From Neisseria sp. MVDL19-042950 (GTDB lineage: Bacteria > Pseudomonadota > Gammaproteobacteria > Burkholderiales > Neisseriaceae): a DNA stretch of 64,000 nucleotides. The stretch covers positions 39,307 through 103,306 of the forward strand of contig NZ_JAUKWH010000009.1 in NCBI RefSeq assembly GCF_030504625.1. The letters are read 5' to 3'. Position 1 is the stretch's first letter; every line of letters starts with the position of its first letter. The position numbers and the translations under genes are program-made. A model generated the notes under the pieces. The model was not told where the DNA came from and did not search any database. It was given only the letters and a program-made list of their open reading frames with translations. Positions 663 through 35,704 of the stretch are shown piece after piece.

Positions 663-2150
663 TTACAAAAGCGGACTCATCAATCTGACGGTATTTTCCA
701 CCAGCCCCCACCATCTCGACCGCTGTTGCCAGCCTTTAACCGTGATGTAGCGGCTGTCGGCCAGATATTGCCGTTGCAAATCATTCACTTGGCGGGTAAT
801 ACCTTTATCGTAAATTGCCAAACTGATTTCCAGATTTAAAAAGAAGCTGCGCATATCCATATTCACGGTACCGAAGAGCGTATAACCGTCGTCTATCACC
901 ATGGTTTTGGCATGCAGCAGCCCGCCGTCGAACAAAGCGATTTTCACGCCTGCTTTAAGCAGCATGGGGTAGTAAGCCCGCGAAGCATAACGCACCATCA
1001 GCGAATCGACTTTGGCCGGCAAAATCAGGGTTACTTCCACACCGCGTTTGGCGGCGGTGGTCAATGCCGTCAACAAAGGTTCGTCGGGCACGAAATACGG
1101 CGTGGTAATCACGATTTTCCGCGTAGCCGAATAAACCGCGCTGAGTATGGTTTCGTAAATCACCCGGTTGACTTGGTCGGGCGCGGAAGGAATCACTTGC
1201 GCCACAATATTCCCCGCCCGCATTTTTTCAGGCAGCATGGCGGGAATCAGCTCGTTGAGTCCGCTCAAATATTGCTGCACTTCGGTTAGATTTTGATCGT
1301 CTTCCACGGCCACATCGGCATAGAACACCGCTGTCATCTCCAACACCAGCGGCCCGGAACAGCGCATCATCACGTCCACCCATTCGCCTACGCCCGAACC
1401 TTGCTTGAAAAAGCGCGGGTCTACCAAGTTGTAGCTGCCGGTATAGCCGATTTTTTTGTCGATAATCAGCATTTTGCGGTGGTTTCGCAAATCGCTGCGG
1501 GTAAACAGGGTTTTCAGTGGCCCCACCGGTAAGGCCGCATGCACTTCCACGCCGAAGCTGCGCAATTTTTTTACCCAGCCGCCGTTGAAAAAATTACGGC
1601 TGCCGACGGCATCGGCAAGAATAACGCAGTCCACTCCGCGTTGTGCCGCCCGAATCACCGCATCCAACAAGGTTTCGATTCGGCCTTGCGGTTCGATAAT
1701 GTAAAACGCCAGCAGGCATGACTGCTGCGCCGATTCAATGTCCGCAAGCATGGCATCGACGATTCCGTCGGTGGTGGAAAGCAGCGTCATGGCATTGCTT
1801 TTGGTCGGCCCCATACCAGTGGTATCGGCGGCAACTTTGGCAATCCCCCGATAGCGCGGGCGCATTTCGTCGGTGATATCCAAATCGATATCCGACATAT
1901 AAAGCTCGATAAACTCGCTGTAAAAACGGTTCATTTCCGCGGCACGCTTGGCCCGCGCCGTTCCGAGCCGCGGCTCTCCCACCATCAAATAAGCAGCCAC
2001 GCCGAATAGCGGGAACACAAACAGAATAATCAACCATGCAAATGCCGCACCCGTATTGCGCTGTTTGTAAAGCACCCGCCCCGCGCAAACCAATGCGGCA
2101 GCGGTGTGCAGGTAAATAAGAATCTGACCCCACGGAATTTCAATATTCAT
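663..2150 (-). CDS. cls: Cardiolipin synthase (phospholipase D family)
   Basis: Condenses two phosphatidylglycerols (or a related pair) to cardiolipin at the inner membrane. The protein has two N-terminal hydrophobic segments (about residues 8-25 and 35-56) and two PLD catalytic HKD motifs: HRKMLIIDKKIGYTGS at about 224 and HAKTMVIDDGYTLFGT at about 413. The length of 495 aa matches ClsA-type enzymes. The ORF-track start at 2306 is rejected because its first 50 codons translate uptake sequences (RPSENFSDGL). ATG at 2150 or 2156 begins at the conserved hydrophobic N-terminus; no strong Shine-Dalgarno separates them. Monocistronic, with DUS hairpins on both sides. Confidence 0.9.
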   Translation of the reverse strand: MNIEIPWGQILIYLHTAAALVCAGRVLYKQRNTGAAFAWLIILFVFPLFGVAAYLMVGEPRLGTARAKRAAEMNRFYSEFIELYMSDIDLDITDEMRPRYRGIAKVAADTTGMGPTKSNAMTLLSTTDGIVDAMLADIESAQQSCLLAFYIIEPQGRIETLLDAVIRAAQRGVDCVILADAVGSRNFFNGGWVKKLRSFGVEVHAALPVGPLKTLFTRSDLRNHRKMLIIDKKIGYTGSYNLVDPRFFKQGSGVGEWVDVMMRCSGPLVLEMTAVFYADVAVEDDQNLTEVQQYLSGLNELIPAMLPEKMRAGNIVAQVIPSAPDQVNRVIYETILSAVYSATRKIVITTPYFVPDEPLLTALTTAAKRGVEVTLILPAKVDSLMVRYASRAYYPMLLKAGVKIALFDGGLLHAKTMVIDDGYTLFGTVNMDMRSFFLNLEISLAIYDKGITRQVNDLQRQYLADSRYITVKGWQQRSRWWGLVENTVRLMSPLL

Positions 2151-2275
2151 AAGCATGCAAGATATTTTCAGACGGCTTGAATTATAGAAGTAATCATCAT
2201 TAAGGTATAAAAGGCCGTCTGAAAGTTCCTTTTTGGCTTTAAACGGCGGCAGGCAATCGACCCGACCATGAAAAA

Positions 2276-2302
2276 GGCCATCTGAAAAATTTTCAGACGG
2301 CC
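2276..2302 (-). terminator. DUS-pair terminator after nhaA
   Basis: Inverted pair, one arm GGCCATCTGAAA (one base off consensus) and one perfect arm, 13 bp beyond the nhaA stop. The neighbouring 130 bp hold two further single DUS copies. Confidence 0.75.
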
Positions 2303-2314
2303 TCACAATATCGT

Positions 2315-3469
2315 TTAATACTTAATTTTAATTCTCTCAAACGGTGCGAATTTCAACACGAGATAACCCGAAACGCCCGCAAACAGTGAGCCTAAAAACA
2401 CCCCTACTTTGCTGTAATCCTGTATGGCGGGGTCAACAAACGCCAGCAGGCTGATAAACAGGCTCATGGTAAAACCGATGCCGCACAACAGCGCCACGCC
2501 ATACACCTGCAACCAGCTCGCCCCTTCCGGCAGTTCGGTCCAGCCGAGTTTCACCGTTGCCCAAACCACACCGAAAACGCCCAACTGTTTGCCCAAAAAC
2601 AAACCGGCAAAAATACCCATTACCACGGGGTCGAAAAGTACCGAGCCGTCCAACCCGGCGAAAGATACGCCGGCATTGGCAAAGCCGAACACCGGCACCA
2701 CGAAAAACGCCACCGGATTTTCCAAAGCGTGCTCCCACTTGAGCAGCGGCGCTTCCTGAATAGAATCCTGTACCCGCAAAGGAATGGCAAAAGCCAGCAA
2801 CACGCCCGCAAGCGTGGCATGAAGGCCGGATTTCAAAACGAAAAACCACAGCAACAAGCCCAGTAGCAAATACGGAAGGCTTTTCAATATGCCTTTTTTA
2901 TTCAAGAAAAACAGCACGGCCAAAGTTGCGGCGGCCAAAGCCAGATAAACAAAACTGATGCTGCTGCTGTAAAACAAGGCAATAATCACAATAACGGCCA
3001 AGTCGTCCATAATCGCCAGTGCCGTCAGAAAAATTTTCAAAGACACCGGCACGCGGCTGCCCAACAAGGCCAACACGCCCAGTGCAAAAGCGATATCGGT
3101 GGCGGCGGGCACGGCCCAACCTTTCAACGTTTCGGGATTGCCGCTGTTAAACAAAACATAAAACAGCGCGGGCATCATCAAACCTCCCAATGCGGCCAAG
3201 CCGGGCAATATCCGCTTGGCGTTGGTATTCAATTCGCCCTGTAATAATTCGCGTTTCACTTCCAAACCCACAAACAGGAAAAATACTGCCATCAAACCGT
3301 CGTTAATCCAATGCGAAACACTCAAGCCGACAACATAAGCGCCGAGCATACTGAAATAATGTTCCGAAGCGGGCGAATTCGCCACGATGATGCCGAGCAC
3401 CGCCGCAATCATCAACACGATACCTGCCGCAGGCTCCGAACTGAAAAAATGAGCTAACTTATCCCTCAC
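2315..3469 (-). CDS. nhaA: Na+/H+ antiporter NhaA
   Basis: Inner-membrane exchanger that expels Na+ (or Li+) against protons for pH and sodium homeostasis. The 384-aa protein is almost entirely hydrophobic helices. It shows the family hallmarks TDIAFALGVLALLGSRVP and ALAIMDDLAVIVIIALF, whose Asp pair at about 155-156 corresponds to the transport aspartates of E. coli NhaA (Asp163/164), plus Asp125. The length equals E. coli NhaA. It starts at MRDKLAHFF, 13 bp after an AAGGAAGG-type site. Single gene between two DUS hairpins. A second, unrelated antiporter (nhaC) lies at 51158. Confidence 0.95.
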   Translation of the reverse strand: MRDKLAHFFSSEPAAGIVLMIAAVLGIIVANSPASEHYFSMLGAYVVGLSVSHWINDGLMAVFFLFVGLEVKRELLQGELNTNAKRILPGLAALGGLMMPALFYVLFNSGNPETLKGWAVPAATDIAFALGVLALLGSRVPVSLKIFLTALAIMDDLAVIVIIALFYSSSISFVYLALAAATLAVLFFLNKKGILKSLPYLLLGLLLWFFVLKSGLHATLAGVLLAFAIPLRVQDSIQEAPLLKWEHALENPVAFFVVPVFGFANAGVSFAGLDGSVLFDPVVMGIFAGLFLGKQLGVFGVVWATVKLGWTELPEGASWLQVYGVALLCGIGFTMSLFISLLAFVDPAIQDYSKVGVFLGSLFAGVSGYLVLKFAPFERIKIKY

Positions 3470-4987: not shown

Positions 4988-6193
4988 TTATAGGGATTCA
5001 TCGTCGGCAGACACGCTCTCCAAAGCCAGTTTGCGCTGCTGCTCCGCCTTTTCGGGCTGCTCGGTTTCGTCAAACACTTTGGCCAAAGCCAAACGCGCCG
5101 GCATGCTCGGGTCGATGGCGAGGCTGGCTTCCAGATACGTCTGCGCCTTGCCCCAAAGCTGCTTGCCGTAAGCCAGTTCGCCCAGATACATCAGCAATTT
5201 GGCATTATTCGGATGCCCCTGCAACCAGCCGTCGGCAAGGTCAATGGCTTTGCGCTGTTCTTTGTCGTTCAAGAAACGCACGCTCTGAACGAAAGTTTTC
5301 AGCAACTCGGCCTGCTGGGTATGCGGATAATATTTCTCCACCCATTTTACCGCATGGCCGTACAAGCCCAAACGCTCGTATTTCTCGGCGATGGCAATAC
5401 ACAATTCGCCGGTTTTCAAATACTCGGGAATACGCTTGAGGCAAACTTTCAAACCGTTATGATCGGAAGCCAATGCCAGTAGGCGGTGGTATGCCCAGTT
5501 TTGATATTGTTCGGCTTCATAATCGCTGATTGCCCCCGCCTTAACCAATTTGTCGGCCTTATCCAATACTTCCAGCGCGTTGCCTTTATCAAAAGCGTAA
5601 CGCAACTGCAAACGCACCAAGCGGGTAAGGCTGGGGTTGATTTGGGTGGCGGAAATCAGGTTTTGTTCGGCAGCCGGATAATCGCGGCGGCTTAAAGCGG
5701 ATTCGGCCAACAACAGATAACGCGAAAGCTGTTTCTTCGCAGGCAATGCTTCGATGTCTTTCAAATAGCGGTCGCGCAGGCCGATGTTGTCCATTTGGTC
5801 GGCGGCATGCGCGCCCAGCATCAATGCCAGCGTGCGGTTGTCGCCCGCTTCTTTGTTGGCCAGCACTTTGGCGGCTTCCTGCTCGGCCTTTTGGAACTTG
5901 CCTTCAAAAAACGCCAAACCCGCATTGTTCAAAGCGGCGGCGGCTTGGCGGCCTTTGCGTGCCACGCCGAAACGCTGCATACGGCCGGGCACGTTGAGAA
6001 TGCCTGCAATCAAACGCACCAGCAGATACAGCACCACCACCAAGGCAATCAAACCGAGAATAAACGCATGCAGGTTGATGCGCAGTATGGTCTGCTCGAC
6101 CACCACATAAACATTGCCGGTATAAGTGCCCGCCGCAATCGCCAAACCAACGGCCACGGCGAATAAAATGATAACCCAAACCAAGCCTCTCAT
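4988..6193 (-). CDS. hemY: HemY, heme biosynthesis-associated TPR membrane protein
   Basis: Two N-terminal transmembrane segments (about 4-24 and 40-62) anchor a long helical tail made of TPR-like repeats (NNAGLAFFEGKFQKAEQEA, LLLAESALSRRDYPAAEQNL, YLGELAYGKQLWGKAQTYLEASL). This is the proteobacterial HemY architecture, unrelated to the protoporphyrinogen oxidase of the same name in Bacillus. Its exact role is unresolved in the literature; it is thought to scaffold late heme synthesis. It overlaps hemX by 4 bp (ATGA), so the two are translationally coupled. Confidence 0.9.
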   Translation of the reverse strand: MRGLVWVIILFAVAVGLAIAAGTYTGNVYVVVEQTILRINLHAFILGLIALVVVLYLLVRLIAGILNVPGRMQRFGVARKGRQAAAALNNAGLAFFEGKFQKAEQEAAKVLANKEAGDNRTLALMLGAHAADQMDNIGLRDRYLKDIEALPAKKQLSRYLLLAESALSRRDYPAAEQNLISATQINPSLTRLVRLQLRYAFDKGNALEVLDKADKLVKAGAISDYEAEQYQNWAYHRLLALASDHNGLKVCLKRIPEYLKTGELCIAIAEKYERLGLYGHAVKWVEKYYPHTQQAELLKTFVQSVRFLNDKEQRKAIDLADGWLQGHPNNAKLLMYLGELAYGKQLWGKAQTYLEASLAIDPSMPARLALAKVFDETEQPEKAEQQRKLALESVSADDESL

Positions 6194-22314: not shown

Positions 22315-22748
22315 ATGATATTTGATGAAAAAATATTTTAGCTTTTTATCTGCATAGGGAATCTGAAGCTTTCAAACAACAAAACATAAATACTGCTTAA
22401 AATAAGCATTCAATGTATCATATTTAAAATATCTCCCTATAAATTAGACAGCGTAACTTACAATTTATTCCTTTATTACCAAGCTATTTAAGAATAAAAT
22501 ATACCAAACAACTTTAGTTATTTAGTATATTTTAATATATTTTTTAATTAAATAACAAATATATAATTCAACAATCTTAAATTATAACCGTTTATTTAGA
22601 TATATCCCCTTTGATATTCATTCCCTCATAAAATAGTTACATTTTATAAGAAAGAAACAATCGAGCCTAAATTGCAATTAAGCTGTCTAAATGACCACCA
22701 ATAAAAAATATGCAATTTCATAAGGCTTTAATTTTTAATGGAAAAATT
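22315..22748. other. 434-bp very AT-rich intergenic region
   Basis: Between erpA and the next gene, composed almost entirely of A/T with short runs such as TTTAGTATATTTTAATATATTTTTT. I see no ORF, tRNA or uptake sequence. It contrasts with typical gaps in this window and presumably carries the promoter of the downstream gene. Confidence 0.5.
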
Positions 22749-23417
22749 ATGAACAAGCCAGAAAGCTTTTACGATGTATATGTTTCTTACCCTCCTGGTG
22801 TTGATCATGAAAGAATTAACGCCTGTCTTCGTGATAACTTACCTGAAAATGAAGCCAATGACTTAATCCAAGCATTGTCAGAGCGCCCTCAAGCTATTAT
22901 TGCTGAATACTGTACAAATGACGAACGCGAAAATGCACGCCATTATTTCAGTTTTTTAGGACTTGACGTTATCGTACGCCGCTCGATGGAACTTGCTCCA
23001 GACAGAGTTGCTGAAGAAGAAGGTAAAACTCAAACATTTGAACAGTGCCCTGTCTGTAATACCATCATTGACGGCCCCGAAGTTACAGATTATCCGACCT
23101 GCCGTTTACACTTCCCGTCGGCGACTGAAATTCTAATACAGCGTAAGCGTATTGAATGGGAAGAAAAAGTGGCTTTCGAACATAAAAAACAGCAAGAAAT
23201 TGCACACAAACTATTACTGGAGAAACAGGAAGAAGAAAAACGTCTGCGCAAACAAATACGTGCAGAATTAGAGGAAAAACTCCAAAAAGAGTTAGGCAAA
23301 CCCAACTGGCGTTTCCTATTCAAAGGAAAAAATGCTGCTGTTGCCGGTATTGTGATTTTCGTCATCGTTATTATTTTAGTTGCAGCCGGTTACTTTACTG
23401 CCCATTTTATTCGATAA
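22749..23417 (+). CDS. Unknown membrane protein with Cys-motif, coiled coil and C-terminal anchor
   Basis: Not recognised. From MNKPESFYDVYV it is 222 aa. Residues 1-90 look globular (YVSYPPGVDHERINACLRDNL, RPQAIIAEYC). A possible zinc-binding cluster follows (QCPVCNTIIDG, then YPTCRLHF). Next is a highly charged helix of about 60 residues rich in E, K, R and Q (EKVAFEHKKQQEIAHKLLLEKQEEEKRLRKQ), probably a coiled coil. It ends in one transmembrane helix (AVAGIVIFVIVIILVAAGYFTAHFI). A tail-anchored topology with a cytosolic body is likely. Start at 22749 is preferred over 22710 because the conserved-looking domain begins there; neither has a strong ribosome site. AT-rich leader. Confidence 0.7.
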   Translation: MNKPESFYDVYVSYPPGVDHERINACLRDNLPENEANDLIQALSERPQAIIAEYCTNDERENARHYFSFLGLDVIVRRSMELAPDRVAEEEGKTQTFEQCPVCNTIIDGPEVTDYPTCRLHFPSATEILIQRKRIEWEEKVAFEHKKQQEIAHKLLLEKQEEEKRLRKQIRAELEEKLQKELGKPNWRFLFKGKNAAVAGIVIFVIVIILVAAGYFTAHFIR

Positions 23418-30564: not shown

Positions 30565-32106
30565 TCAAGGGCTGCCGTAGGCTAATAGTTTTTGAGTATA
30601 GTCCGCATCAGGTTTCGCAAACACCGCTTCCAACCCGCCCTGCTCGACCACATGCCCGTCTTTCAGCACCATCACGCGGTGCGACAAGGCGCGGATGACG
30701 GCCAAATCGTGGCTGATGATGATCAAACTCAAGCCGTGTTTTCTTTGCAAATCAGCCAGTAATGCCAAAATCTGCTGCTGCCACTGCACATCGAGCGCGC
30801 TGGTAGGTTCGTCGAGCACCAGCACTTGCGGCTTCACGATAATGGCGCGGGCAATCGCCAACCGCTGCCGCTGGCCACCTGAAAAAGCGTGCGGATAGCG
30901 GTCGAGAATATCTTCGGGCAGTCCGACTTGTTGCAGCACTTCCACCACACGCTCACGCATGGTTTCGCGGCTCATCGCCGGCTCATGCACACGCAAGGCT
31001 TCGGAGACAATATCAAACACATTCATACGCGGGTTAAACGCGCCGAACGGGTCTTGAAACACCATCTGCACGGCTTTTCTCAATTCCGGCCGCGATGGTG
31101 CGCCGTTGATTTTCAGACGGCCTTCCGACTCCATCAAACGCATTACCGCCTTGGCCAGCGTGGTTTTGCCGCTGCCGCTTTCGCCGATAATGCCCAGCGT
31201 TTCGCCTGCTTTTAAGTCGAACGACAATGGATGCAGCAACACTTTGCTGCGTTTTTTAAACCACCCTGCCCGCTCGCCCACCGCCACGCTGATGTTTTCC
31301 GCCTCGAGCACGGTTGCGGCATGTTCGGCCAAAGGCTGCACTTGCCGCACTGCGCCGGCGTTCAGCAGCATTTTGGTGTATTCGTGCTGCGGATGCGCAA
31401 ACACCTGCGCGGCCTCGCCCTGCTCGACAATCCGCCCGTGCCGCATCACGGCGATATCGTCGGCGAAACGGCGCACCAAATTCAAATCGTGGCTGATGTA
31501 CACCAAAGTCATGTTGTGGCCGGCCTGCAAGCGCGAAAGCAAATCGAGAATCTGCGCCTGCACCGCCACATCCAGCGCGGTGGTCGGCTCGTCGGCAATC
31601 AGCAATTTAGGCTCCGCCGCCACCGCCATCGCAATCATCGCCCGCTGCCGCTGACCGCCCGAAAGCTGGAACGGAAAGGCAAACACCTTCTCTTCAGGAT
31701 TCCGAATACCCGTTTCCGCCAGCAACTCCACCGCCCGCGCCCATGCCTGCTTGGGCGGCAAACCCAGATGCAGCGTCAACACTTCAGCAATCTGCTTGCC
31801 CACGCGCATCACGGGGTTCAAAGCCGTCATCGGCTCCTGAAACACCATGCCGATTTCCCTGCCGCGCAATTTTTGCAGCGCGCGCGGCGATTTATCGAGC
31901 AGGTTTTCGCCGTTGAATTTCAGACGGCCTTCAAACGACACCGCCGGATTCAACTGCATCATGCCCTGCGCCAACACAGTTTTACCGCTGCCGCTCTCGC
32001 CCACAATCGCCAACTTTCGGCCTTGTTTGACGTTGAGGTTGATGTCGTGCAGCACCTGCTTGCAGGGGAAAGAGGCGTTTAGGTTTTGGATTTCGAGAAT
32101 GTTCAT
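30565..32106 (-). CDS. yejF: Peptide ABC transporter, fused double ATPase (YejF)
   Basis: Powers import of oligopeptides (in E. coli, microcin C) with permeases YejB and YejE. 513 aa with two complete ATPase domains. Domain 1: Walker [14 protein letters not shown], signature [14 protein letters not shown], Walker [13 protein letters not shown]. Domain 2: [39 protein letters not shown]. The oligopeptide-type extension ([23 protein letters not shown]) follows each. Its start is 12 bp from the stop of an AT-rich unknown gene that separates it from yejE, so it may depend on read-through of that cassette. Confidence 0.92.
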
Positions 32107-32117
32107 TGACTTAAATA

Positions 32118-32756
32118 TTATTCTTCTTGCTGATATTCTTTTTTTAAATACCCCTCCATTAAATCTCTAGCAATTGCTTTAAAAATTAGCATATGCTCTA
32201 TAACCGTATCAAAAGCTTCGTCTAACGGCAAAAGTGCATCAGTATAATTAGGATATTCTTCTAACAATCTCTCTAAATCTAATTTAACAGGTAAAAATAT
32301 TACTCTTTCCTCACTACCTGCCCCAACATATTGAAAGTTAGCTTGAGATAATTCTGGATACTTCTCAAATTGTTTCTGCATAAAACTTTTAGATTCTTTA
32401 GCGGTTAGCGTAAAAAAATTTCTGTTAAAACCAAATCTAATACCAGATTCAATAATCTCCCCATCTTCATACCGTCCTAAATCAGTAAATACACTTAACC
32501 ACTTAAATTCATGTGTACTAATTTTATGACGTGTTTTAATATCCCAAGTAAACCAAATCGCTTCACTCTCTTTCTTACCTTCCAAATTCATTGGCCACAT
32601 AGTGTCTTGTTTAACTTCTTTATACCACTCCTGAAATTTTGTATCTATTTTGTGATAAAACTCATCATCAATTTTGCCTAAAAGTTCATAAGACTTCTCC
32701 AGCATATCCAAATTTTTCAAAACCAGTTTAGCCAGCTCTTGTTCAGTATTGTTCAT
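32118..32756 (-). CDS. Unknown AT-rich gene, partner of a PD-(D/E)XK nuclease
   Basis: 212 aa, not recognised. Strongly charged and aromatic (KIDDEFYHKIDTKFQEWYKEVK, HEFKWLSVFTDLGRYEDGE, SGIRFGFNRNFFTLTAKESKSFM), mixed alpha/beta in appearance, no signal peptide or membrane segment. It follows the nuclease gene by 11 bp on the same strand and is visibly richer in A/T than the yej genes on both sides, so the two look like one acquired unit. It could be a regulator, an inhibitor or a split-off C-terminal domain of the nuclease; nothing in the sequence decides. Confidence 0.75.
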   Translation of the reverse strand: MNNTEQELAKLVLKNLDMLEKSYELLGKIDDEFYHKIDTKFQEWYKEVKQDTMWPMNLEGKKESEAIWFTWDIKTRHKISTHEFKWLSVFTDLGRYEDGEIIESGIRFGFNRNFFTLTAKESKSFMQKQFEKYPELSQANFQYVGAGSEERVIFLPVKLDLERLLEEYPNYTDALLPLDEAFDTVIEHMLIFKAIARDLMEGYLKKEYQQEE

Positions 32757-32767
32757 TTTAAAATCCT

Positions 32768-33514
32768 TTATAGTGATGCAAAGTGATTAGCCAATTGGTT
32801 AAAAATAACCTGCTGATATGGAGAATAGTGTGAATACGAAGAAATTGTTTGCCTTAAACATTTAGCAATCTCCTGCCAAGAAAGCAAAATCACTTTATCG
32901 TGCAGTAATGTATCATGTGGAAGTTGTTTATTTTTCGTGAGAAATAGCAAATGTTTTTGTGATGCCGTTTCTTTATTCAAGCGTTCCCAGTAACGCCGTA
33001 ATTGGCTGTTGTGCTGATTTATTGCCTCATTAGCGTCTACTTTCGCTTCCAAAAACAAACAGGTGCTTCGGCTTTTTATCACGATATCTATGCGTTCGGA
33101 GATATTACCGTATTGACAAATCTCAAACTGAGTTGCGTAAGGTTCATATCTTAAATAGTCAATTACCAAACCCAAGCGGTTTTCTTTATCAATAAATTTC
33201 AATAGATCCAATAAAAAACACTTCCCCAAGCCGTGATCGCCTTTTTCGTCCATCAACCAGCCTAAAACTTCACAATTTTTCAGCTCCGATCTGCCTATCC
33301 TCACAAACTGCCAAAGGTTCATCTGCATTCCTGCCCGAAATAAGGCATCATCTCTCTCCCGATAAGCATCCAAAAATTTTTTTAATTCAGAAGCATCCAA
33401 ATTTATAGAATAATCAATCTCAGCTTTTGCTTTCTGCTCAGGTTGTTTTTCATATAAACATCTAAACTCATCATAAAACTTAACAAACTGCTGCTGAAAA
33501 TTCGATTGATTCAT
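32768..33514 (-). CDS. PD-(D/E)XK superfamily nuclease (PDDEXK_4-like)
   Basis: 248 aa from MNQSNFQQQF, chosen because AAGGGAGAG lies just upstream; the track start at 33577 lacks a ribosome site. The family pattern is clear: ELKNCEVLGWLMDEKGDHGLGKCFLLDLL (first acidic motif), then SERIDIVIKSRSTCLFLEAKVDANE giving D143, E156 and K158, followed by NSQLRRYWERL. Such proteins occur as stand-alone predicted nucleases in variable regions, often taken to be defence genes; targets are unknown. AT-rich, paired with the next gene, and inserted between yejE and yejF. Confidence 0.82.
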   Translation of the reverse strand: MNQSNFQQQFVKFYDEFRCLYEKQPEQKAKAEIDYSINLDASELKKFLDAYRERDDALFRAGMQMNLWQFVRIGRSELKNCEVLGWLMDEKGDHGLGKCFLLDLLKFIDKENRLGLVIDYLRYEPYATQFEICQYGNISERIDIVIKSRSTCLFLEAKVDANEAINQHNSQLRRYWERLNKETASQKHLLFLTKNKQLPHDTLLHDKVILLSWQEIAKCLRQTISSYSHYSPYQQVIFNQLANHFASL

Positions 33515-33658
33515 CACTCTCTCCCTTAACATTCTAAAATTACAGAAAAAATCCTTAAACTTATCTACTTCCATCATTACTTTCCATATGCCAAGGGAAA
33601 TACAAAAGCAATGCTTTTTTAAATTTAAATATTGATAGAGAAATGGCCTTTATCTATT

Positions 33659-34696
33659 TTATGTCCGCGCCCTAACATCAAACGCATACCGCAGCCCTTC
33701 GCCTATCATCACCAGCAGCAACAGCATCACCGTCAGCGCGCCGACGGCCGACAGGCCTATCCACCATGCGTCGAGATTGTCTTTGCCTTGCGCCAGCAGT
33801 TCACCCAAGCTGGCTTGCGAAGCGGGTACGCCCAAGCCGAGGAAGTCGAGGCTGGTTAAGGCCAGCACCGCGCCGGAAATGCGAAACGGTAAAAACGCCA
33901 GCACCGGCGCTAAGCTGTTGGGCAGAATGTGCCGCCACATAATCGTGCGGTTGCCCACGCCCATGCTTTTTGCCGCCAGCACATAATCGGCCTGACGGTT
34001 TTTGAGAAACTCGGCACGCACGTAGTCCGACAAGCCCATCCAGCCGAACAGCGACAGAATTACCAGCAGCACCAGCAGGCCGGGATTGAAAAACGACGAT
34101 AAGATAATCAGCAAATAAAGCTCGGGCAGCCCGCCCCAGATTTCGAGAAACCGCTGCATTACCAAATCGACCTTGCCGCCAAAATAGCCCTGCACCGCGC
34201 CTGCCAGCACGCCGATAAGGGTGGTTACGGCGGTTAAGGCCAGTGCAAACAGCAGCGAATCGCGAAAGCCGTACACCAACCGCGCCAACACGTCGCGCCC
34301 GCGGTCGTCGGTGCCGAGCCAATGGTTTTCAGACGGCCCCGCAGGGTCTGGCTGCGTGTCGAAATCGTTAAGGGTATTGGCGGCGTAAGGATTGGGCAGA
34401 TACACGGCGTGGTTGCCGTTGGAAGTGATATTGTGCCGCACCAAAGGGTCGAGGTAATCGGCGGGCGTGTCGAAATCGCCGCCGAACTCGGTTTCATGAT
34501 AGGTGTTGACGAGCGGGAAGTAATATTGGCCGTTGTAGTGTATCCATAACGGTTTGTCGTTGCTCCAAAGCGGCGCAAGTATGGCGAAGGCAAACAGCCA
34601 AGCCAGCAGCAGCAAACTGAAATAACCGCGCTTATGCTGCTTAAACGCCCGCCATGCGGTTTGGGAAGGATTCGGTTGCATAGGTTTAATCGTCAT
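33659..34696 (-). CDS. yejE: Peptide ABC transporter permease YejE
   Basis: 345-aa inner-membrane permease of the dipeptide/oligopeptide class. N-terminal helix YFSLLLLAWLFAFAILAPLW is followed by a long periplasmic stretch typical of YejE, containing the YNGQYYFPLVNTY and HWLGTDDRGRDVLARLVYGFR motifs. Five more helices follow, with the EAA-type loop AEFLKNRQADYVLAAKSMGVGNRTIMWRHILPNSLAP. Its usual neighbours yejB and yejF are both displaced: yejB lies 1.1 kb upstream beyond plus-strand genes, yejF 1.5 kb downstream beyond the nuclease cassette. Confidence 0.93.
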   Translation of the reverse strand: MTIKPMQPNPSQTAWRAFKQHKRGYFSLLLLAWLFAFAILAPLWSNDKPLWIHYNGQYYFPLVNTYHETEFGGDFDTPADYLDPLVRHNITSNGNHAVYLPNPYAANTLNDFDTQPDPAGPSENHWLGTDDRGRDVLARLVYGFRDSLLFALALTAVTTLIGVLAGAVQGYFGGKVDLVMQRFLEIWGGLPELYLLIILSSFFNPGLLVLLVILSLFGWMGLSDYVRAEFLKNRQADYVLAAKSMGVGNRTIMWRHILPNSLAPVLAFLPFRISGAVLALTSLDFLGLGVPASQASLGELLAQGKDNLDAWWIGLSAVGALTVMLLLLVMIGEGLRYAFDVRART

Positions 34697-34810: not shown

Positions 34811-35116
34811 ATGAAAAAATTACTGCAAATGCATTTCAGTTTTCACGGACCGTTCGGTTCGGAAATGGCTGCCCAACTGCGGGAGCTGGCCGAATCGATT
34901 AATCAGGAGCCGGGCTTTATTTGGAAAGTGTGGACGGAAAGCGAGAAAAACCAAGAGGCCGGCGGAATTTATCTTTTTGAAAACGAAGAAACCGCTCTGG
35001 CTTATGTGGAAAAGCATTCCGCCCGTTTGAAAACGTTCGACATCAACGAGGTGGTTTACAAAATCTTTGATGTCAACGAACCGCTCACGCTGATTAACCG
35101 CGGCAAATTGGGTTAA
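34811..35116 (+). CDS. YdhR-like small monooxygenase-fold protein
   Basis: 101 aa, nearly collinear with E. coli YdhR as I recall it: [63 protein letters not shown] and [16 protein letters not shown] dimeric alpha/beta-barrel fold related to antibiotic-biosynthesis monooxygenases; the natural substrate is unknown. Good ribosome site AGGAGAAAAA. Divergent from yejE and ends at a DUS hairpin. Confidence 0.9.
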
Positions 35117-35145
35117 TTGTTCTCTCTATTTATTCAATGTATTAC

Positions 35146-35183
35146 AGGCCGTCTGAAACGCCGGATTGTTTTTCAGGCGGCCT
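35146..35183 (+). terminator. DUS-like pair terminator after the ydhR-like gene
   Basis: AGGCCGTCTGAAA with a partner arm TTTCAGGCGGCCT (one mismatch), 29 bp past the stop. Confidence 0.75.
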
Positions 35184-35240
35184 GTTTTCTATCAGCCAAA
35201 CTGCCTTTTCCCTCTCGAAACAGAATCATCACAAAAGATG

Positions 35241-35269
35241 TTGATAACTATTCTCAAATTATCTATAAT
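35241..35269 (+). promoter_or_regulatory. Promoter of the L31B-L36B operon
   Basis: TTGATA, 17-bp spacer, TATAAT: a near-consensus sigma-70 promoter 35 bp upstream of rpmE2, with a Zur-type operator starting on the last base of its -10 box. Confidence 0.85.
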
Positions 35270-35283
35270 GTTACACCATAACA
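35269..35283 (+). promoter_or_regulatory. Zur operator
   Basis: TGTTACACCATAACA matches the meningococcal Zur motif TGTTATDNHATAACA (recalled) at all but one position. It covers the expected transcription start, so zinc-loaded Zur should block this promoter and zinc starvation should release it. Confidence 0.75.
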
Positions 35284-35303
35284 TTTAAGAGAGGATTGTA
35301 TCG

Positions 35304-35579
35304 ATGAAACCGAATCTGCACCCCGAAAACTACCGCACCGTATTGTTCTACGACAGCGGAGCCGAAGAAGGCTGGCTTATCCGCTCGTGTGCCGACACCC
35401 ACGGTAAAACGATGAAATGGAAAGACGGCAACGAATACCCCGTATTCATGCTCGATACTTCTTCCGCCTCCCATCCGGCGTACACCGGCAAACAACGCCA
35501 GTTCCACACCGAAGGGCGCGCCAGCAAGTTCAACCAACGCTATCAATCGATGATGGGTTCACTCAGAAAGGACAAATAA
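35304..35579 (+). CDS. rpmE2: Ribosomal protein L31 type B (zinc-independent)
   Basis: 91 aa, closely matching Neisseria L31[60 protein letters not shown], and [22 protein letters not shown]. It lacks the CxxC zinc ribbon of type A L31, so it can replace the zinc form on ribosomes and free zinc during starvation. Zur-type operator at its promoter; stop codon overlaps the L36B start (TAATG). Confidence 0.96.
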
Positions 35580-35704
35580 TGCAAGTATTATCTTCGCTGA
35601 AAACGGCTAAAAAACGCCACCGCGACTGCCAGATTGTGCGCCGCAAAGGTAAAGTTTATGTAATCTGCAAAAGCAACCCCCGCTTTAAAGCCCGCCAGCG
35701 TTAA
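35579..35704 (+). CDS. rpmJ2: Ribosomal protein L36 type B
   Basis: 41 aa, too short for the track: [20 protein letters not shown], then [19 protein letters not shown]. It matches the YkgO/type B L36 form, which lacks the full Cys3-His zinc site of type A. Its ATG shares one base with the rpmE2 stop, so translation is coupled, and both genes share the Zur-type promoter. Confidence 0.93.

Follow-up and report, generated by a model that had tools for sequence, protein, structure and literature searches.

The DNA analysed here, a stretch of 64 kb referred to as the window, carries two AT-rich genes between its yejE-like and yejF-like transporter genes, which raises the question of where this pair came from, whether it exists elsewhere and what it might do for its host. 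An earlier note on this DNA had described a PD-(D/E)XK nuclease gene with a partner gene of no recognised family, had considered them an acquired defence or toxin-antidote cassette and had ranked them as its best candidate for an undescribed system. Both ORFs, as well as the 11-bp spacing between them, were found where it had placed them (Table 1).

Table 1. Features of the insert and its flanks in the window
Feature	Position	Strand	Description	Family
Whole insert	32107..33658	.	1,552 bp, all bases that separate the yejE stop and the yejF start; devoid of DNA uptake sequences	
PDDEXK_4 nuclease gene	32768..33577	(-)	269 aa, or 248 aa from an internal ATG at 33514	PF14281
Partner gene	32118..32756	(-)	212 aa; acidic; long N-terminal helix and small alpha/beta domain	No described family
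Intergenic gap	32757..32767	(-)	11 bp, overlaps an AAAGGA ribosome-binding-like motif	
yejE-like permease gene	33659..34696	(-)	Upstream flank of the site	PF00528, PF12911
yejF-like duplicated ABC ATPase gene	30565..32106	(-)	Downstream flank of the site	PF00005, two stretches

The visibly lower GC content claimed for the pair was confirmed. With 31.6% and 35.9% GC, the partner and nuclease genes have the two lowest values (z-scores of -3.6 and -2.8, respectively) among the 47 window ORFs of at least 150 aa that served as the baseline (mean 50.9%, sd 5.4%). Both genes are co-directional with the transporter genes. DNA uptake sequences are abundant in the window (83 observed against 0.15 expected), which indicates that the host is Neisseria or a close relative. 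Since the two ORFs take up the insert, there is no room in it for an integrase. A further low-GC ORF (39.7%, 235 aa) with no match in Pfam was observed at 22710-23417 on the plus strand of the window.

The nuclease was not detected in any of the other 45 genomes with which the window was compared within the genus. Orthologues of yejE, 79-92% identical, are present in 38 of them, and the DNA downstream of yejE was compared in these 38 relatives, one genome each, across species. The junction is empty in 12 relatives, in which yejF starts 0-44 bp after yejE; nine carry a gene for an acyl-CoA ligase-like protein, with native GC content, and two a putative membrane protein gene of 31% GC. One genome has 174 bp of AT-rich sequence there, another has 539 bp in which no gene is evident, and a third holds a cassette coding for a VbhA antitoxin and a Fic protein (60 and 201 aa; L086, G002). 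In the other 12 relatives, yejF was not found within 6 kb of yejE. The AT-rich membrane protein (~170-180 aa, no Pfam family) was seen after yejE in L077 (G043), L079 (G006) and L112 (G018), in one of these three genomes with yejF not nearby, and its ORF is broken into two in G043. A 327-aa membrane-type protein whose family was not recognised lies immediately behind yejE in L081 (G035).

The pair is thus not a resident shared by the relatives at this site, which is either empty or otherwise filled, and its low GC content, its absence from 45 genomes and the polymorphic junction strongly support an acquired cassette. The view of the transporter locus as normally contiguous held in part: the insert directly adjoins the yejE stop on one side and the yejF start on the other, but yejE and yejF are contiguous in only 12 of the 38 relatives. 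Moreover, ydhR-like, L31 and L36 genes (L36 recognised by eye) lie between yejB and yejE on the opposite strand (window 34811-35704, plus strand), so that the transporter operon was already split in this genome. The yejE-yejF junction is a cargo site of Neisseria-like genomes, as in the minimal mobile element (Saunders and Snyder 2002; defined in PMC3898611), of which restriction-modification is a frequent cargo. Like the minimal mobile elements of Neisseria, it has one pair of conserved genes enclosing whole-gene cassettes that differ among the 38 relatives; unlike them, it was seen to vary across species, one genome each, and not among strains of one species.

The upstream gene of the pair codes for a protein that matched PF14281 (PDDEXK_4) in profile search with an E-value of 2.1e-13 and 51.1 bits, above the curated cut-off of 22.3. 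Twelve PDC-S26 models of PADLOC matched it as well (best E 3.8e-21), each over approximately the first half of the model. Nine positions are invariant in 33 relatives of the nuclease (W89, E98, D164, E177, K179, A182, Q192, L213 and W234). Its active-site residues are E98, D164, E177, K179 and Q192 in the 269-aa numbering, and the D ... E-x-K site of PDDEXK_4 together with the upstream helix glutamate (E98, D164, E177, K179) is kept in 33/33. The residues that the earlier note had reported as an intact D143/E156/K158 site are present and invariant, but numbered 21 too low, corresponding to D164/E177/K179 of the 269-aa ORF; the constant offset indicates that the earlier numbering starts at the internal ATG at 33514. 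This ATG is preceded by AAGGGAGAG, and relatives with short N-termini align near it, others having a longer N-terminal region. Hence, the internal ATG is a plausible start of the nuclease, and the 269-aa start is possible too. An AlphaFold2 model (pLDDT 82, pTM 0.70) has a core of PD-(D/E)XK type, for which Foldseek returned only weak PDB neighbours, namely McrC as the best match (probability 0.84, E 0.03), R.BspD6I/Nt.BspD6I, MspJI and Cap4. The core therefore shares a weak fold resemblance with McrBC, other PD-(D/E)XK restriction nucleases and Cap4. From the conservation of its site we infer that the nuclease is active.

The partner did not match any family in Pfam, NCBIfam or PADLOC, and a single PHROG was matched at chance level only, in agreement with the claim of a protein without a recognised family. 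Structure prediction gave a good model (AlphaFold2, pLDDT 87, pTM 0.83) with a 36-residue helix, followed by a small alpha/beta part and helices at the end, the fold of which found no match in the PDB (best E 0.34) or among the BFVD viral models (best E 0.13), the best query-normalised TM-scores being ~0.24 or less. The partner is acidic, with a pI of 4.9 in the window and, across the family, a median pI of 4.59 and net charge of -15, against a median pI of 7.0 for the nucleases. Its length varies from 196 to 230 aa. Conservation is highest at tryptophans, glycines, phenylalanines and one proline, and the alignment of the partners holds no conserved polar set suggestive of an active site; the protein is apparently non-enzymatic. 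Searches of plasmids and phages by tblastn with the partner gave no match, nor did a first scan of genome contigs with the partner alone as query, the latter since its words are too poorly conserved. A partner match in G166 (E 0.0015) was set aside, since the ORF around it, of 626 aa, resembles an unrelated protein.

Whether the two genes belong together was decided by their recurrence. Searching plasmids by tblastn revealed pairs of 276 and 213 aa on an Azotobacter plasmid, adjoining integrase and hipA genes, of 256 and 216 aa in Proteus mirabilis, close to a type I restriction gene, and of 251 and 210 aa in Novosphingobium, adjoining AbiEii, with the partner directly downstream of the nuclease in all three. 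A scan of 84,980 genomes, in which an alignment of five paired nucleases served as query and the partner was not used, yielded 32 loci, and in 31 of them a partner profile, which also detects members outside its own building set, found the partner immediately downstream. The 32nd locus (L042) carries a degraded nuclease remnant around 5001-5210 in a Myxococcales MAG; its reading as a possible fusion was rejected, and DUF1016-like and AbiEi-like ORFs were noticed by eye close to it. Conversely, searches seeded with the partner led to G063, G132, G625 and G862, with the nuclease next door in 4/4. The gap between the two genes measures 10-20 nt in 26 of the 28 loci with an intact partner ORF (median 14). 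Pairwise distances of nucleases and partners are strongly correlated (Mantel r = 0.93), a value reached by 0/2000 permutations. The pair is obligate and co-inherited, and the existence of a two-gene family is near certain.

The hosts of this family are scattered over Enterobacterales, Burkholderiales-type genera, Acetobacteraceae, Sphingomonas, purple sulfur bacteria and Desulfobacterota-type MAGs. One Bacteroidota MAG and one Planctomycetota MAG were also among them, but faulty binning may account for both, as it may for a 'Bacillus' contig that is almost the same as one from Sphingomonas. Some loci have additional metallopeptidase-like sequences. In Lamprocystis (L027, 3417-5729) the nuclease ORF is 770 aa long, and its N-terminal part of ~500 aa appears ImmA/IrrE-like by eye, with neither an HExxH motif nor a Pfam match; in a Sphingomonas MAG (L033, 3805-4836) a Peptidase_M78 (ImmA/IrrE) gene, whose product has an HELGH motif, shares 4 bp with the start of the nuclease gene. 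The fusion in L027 and an upstream metallopeptidase in L023 were rejected as core components, as they are not recurrent.

At least 31 further loci, from many bacterial orders, carry both genes, and the spacing and the active site are conserved. The idea that the foreign insert is decayed or functionless and that its two genes are unrelated neighbours by chance, to which the atypical composition and the single occurrence in the genus might have pointed, is refuted by the co-occurrence and may be dismissed as extremely improbable.

The gene neighbourhood of the pair offers an indication of its function. Flanking ORFs of ~30 pair loci were scanned with PADLOC (E 1e-8) in two sets of 112 and 128 proteins, with 249 proteins (124 and 125) encoded by 30 arbitrarily chosen 10-kb segments of related genomes as the control. 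The flanking sets matched 76 and 99 PADLOC families and the control sets 10 and 16, respectively, counts that are not independent since one restriction gene matches many models. The kinds of genes differ clearly, too. Flanks of the pair hold type I restriction and methyltransferase genes at several loci, WYL/WCX proteins (WYL regulators in 7 proteins), SoFic in two proteins, AbiEi/AbiEii, NsnA and PglX/type IIG, while type I restriction, WYL, Fic and AbiE families are all absent from the 249 control proteins, the matches of which are mostly generic ATPase-like and include one type IIG enzyme. This enrichment is an association, and several loci (e.g., L016, L019 and L038) have no evident defence gene nearby. 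Based on the neighbourhood and the nuclease family, a role in defence appears likely.

The best explanation of these results, with a probability of about 0.55, is a partner-gated defence nuclease carried in a mobile whole-gene cassette. The mobile module would consist of a PD-(D/E)XK nuclease of the PDDEXK_4 superfamily and its obligate acidic partner, the two proteins presumably forming a complex, with the partner holding or positioning the nuclease. The partner would sense a cue derived from a phage or plasmid, upon which the nuclease would cut nucleic acid and thereby stop the invader or the cell. As a whole-gene cassette, the module came into the yejE-yejF junction of this genome; the most likely route is homologous recombination via the flanking genes, in the manner of a minimal mobile element. 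For the gating of the nuclease by the partner, which is a hypothesis, we see even odds.

The nearest known relatives of the nuclease are the single-gene PDC-S26/PF14281 proteins, PDC being an unpublished phage defence candidate in PADLOC (PMC11811056, PMC11514479). No mention of PDC-S26, PF14281 or PDDEXK_4 was found in the literature searched; subscription papers, preprints or newer catalogues of defence systems may hold a description. The single-gene proteins have a homologous nuclease domain with equal motif order and active site; unlike the pair, they are encoded by one gene of ~350-450 codons, whereas here the nuclease ends after the domain and a separate 212-aa protein comes next. It is less likely than not that the pair is such a protein split in two, with its C-terminal half detached as the partner, and works like that candidate; this reading concerns origin and is compatible with a partner-gated nuclease. 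The nuclease domains are clearly homologous (hhalign 99.8%, E 3e-29; PADLOC E 4e-21 over the first ~190 of ~400 positions), the tails of 169-216 aa are comparable in length to the partners, and the order of predicted elements is alike by eye. However, profile-profile comparison of the partner with the tails (hhalign, 12 and then 17 tails) gave a probability of 0.1%, with 99.8% for the nuclease as control, and hmmsearch gave no signal; the tails are mostly less acidic than the partner, and the partner fold is unmatched among viral protein models. In a FastTree tree, the paired nucleases and 18 single-gene (fused) PDDEXK_4 proteins fall on opposite sides. The 269-aa nuclease matches only positions ~7-190 of the PDC-S26 model, short of the whole model, and the pair is therefore not PDC-S26 as modelled, the C-terminal half of the model being unmatched. 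Within the libraries searched, the description of the pair as undescribed is supported. Two single-gene proteins were observed apart from this comparison. In L003 (G058, 1507-3344) a 189-aa ORF lies behind the gene of a single-gene PDDEXK_4 protein of 406 aa and duplicates the C-terminal half of that protein, which indicates that this half also exists as a free protein in the same bacterial family. In Komagataeibacter, the pair has a single-gene nuclease-like protein of 340 aa ~1.5 kb away (L031, 2217-3239, minus strand), which the alignment places with the PDC-S26 type.

The main rival of a partner-gated defence nuclease is a toxin-antitoxin system, in which the nuclease would attack host nucleic acid, the acidic partner would be an antitoxin or DNA-mimic inhibitor, and the cassette would serve its own persistence or abortive infection. 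As in type II toxin-antitoxin systems, the two adjacent genes always occur together, and the strict pairing, the tight spacing and the strong acidity of the partner (pI below 5 in 28/31) are in line with this reading, as are the VbhA/Fic pair that fills the same junction in a related genome, the HipA gene near the pair on the Azotobacter plasmid and the AbiE toxin-antitoxin genes adjoining it in Novosphingobium. The Fic/VbhA proteins, however, are unrelated to the pair, and the antitoxin comes first there, while the effector comes first here; furthermore, 196-230 aa is large for a type II antitoxin. Three loci speak against it. The active-site stretch of the nuclease is kept next to a partner broken by a frameshift (L011), by stops (L018, where the nuclease start is ambiguous) or by an insertion sequence (L037), all three of them from the search with the nuclease as query, in which the reverse case of a partner without nuclease is under-sampled. 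Such loci suggest that the nuclease stays silent when its partner is lost, and they fit this better than a free toxin. Hence, the toxin-antidote half of the earlier proposal is less favoured, and we consider it unlikely.

A restriction system of type IV-like kind, in which the partner would be the subunit for DNA recognition or modification-dependent targeting and foreign DNA would be cut directly, is improbable. The best nuclease fold match is McrC and the others are restriction enzymes, and type I restriction genes are frequent neighbours, but a DNA-recognition subunit is hard to reconcile with a partner that is strongly acidic and has no recognised DNA-binding fold, and the pair includes neither an NTPase nor a methyltransferase. 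In particular, it differs from McrBC in having no McrB-like GTPase, its partner having no P-loop family match and an unrelated fold. Likewise, it differs from CBASS, of which Cap4 is an effector, in having no SAVED domain and no cyclase, and a cyclase was also absent from the neighbour families listed.

Taken together, the insert is an acquired, recurrent and undescribed two-gene nuclease module that probably has a defensive function. A broader statement is put forward more tentatively, at somewhat short of even odds: the two genes would make up a widespread anti-phage system not described so far, whose PDDEXK_4 nuclease is gated by a protein of new fold and which travels with plasmids and islands and, in Neisseria, by cassette exchange in a transporter operon. 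One odd insert has become a defined, testable family of ~36 loci, in which the gene order is fixed, the active site does not vary and the partner has no known family or fold. The yejE-yejF junction is marked as a cargo site of Neisseria and as a source of other uncharacterised cassettes. If the pair is a defence system, it would add a two-component architecture to a nuclease superfamily so far listed only as single-gene candidates, and it would offer a direct test of the role of their extra ~200 residues.
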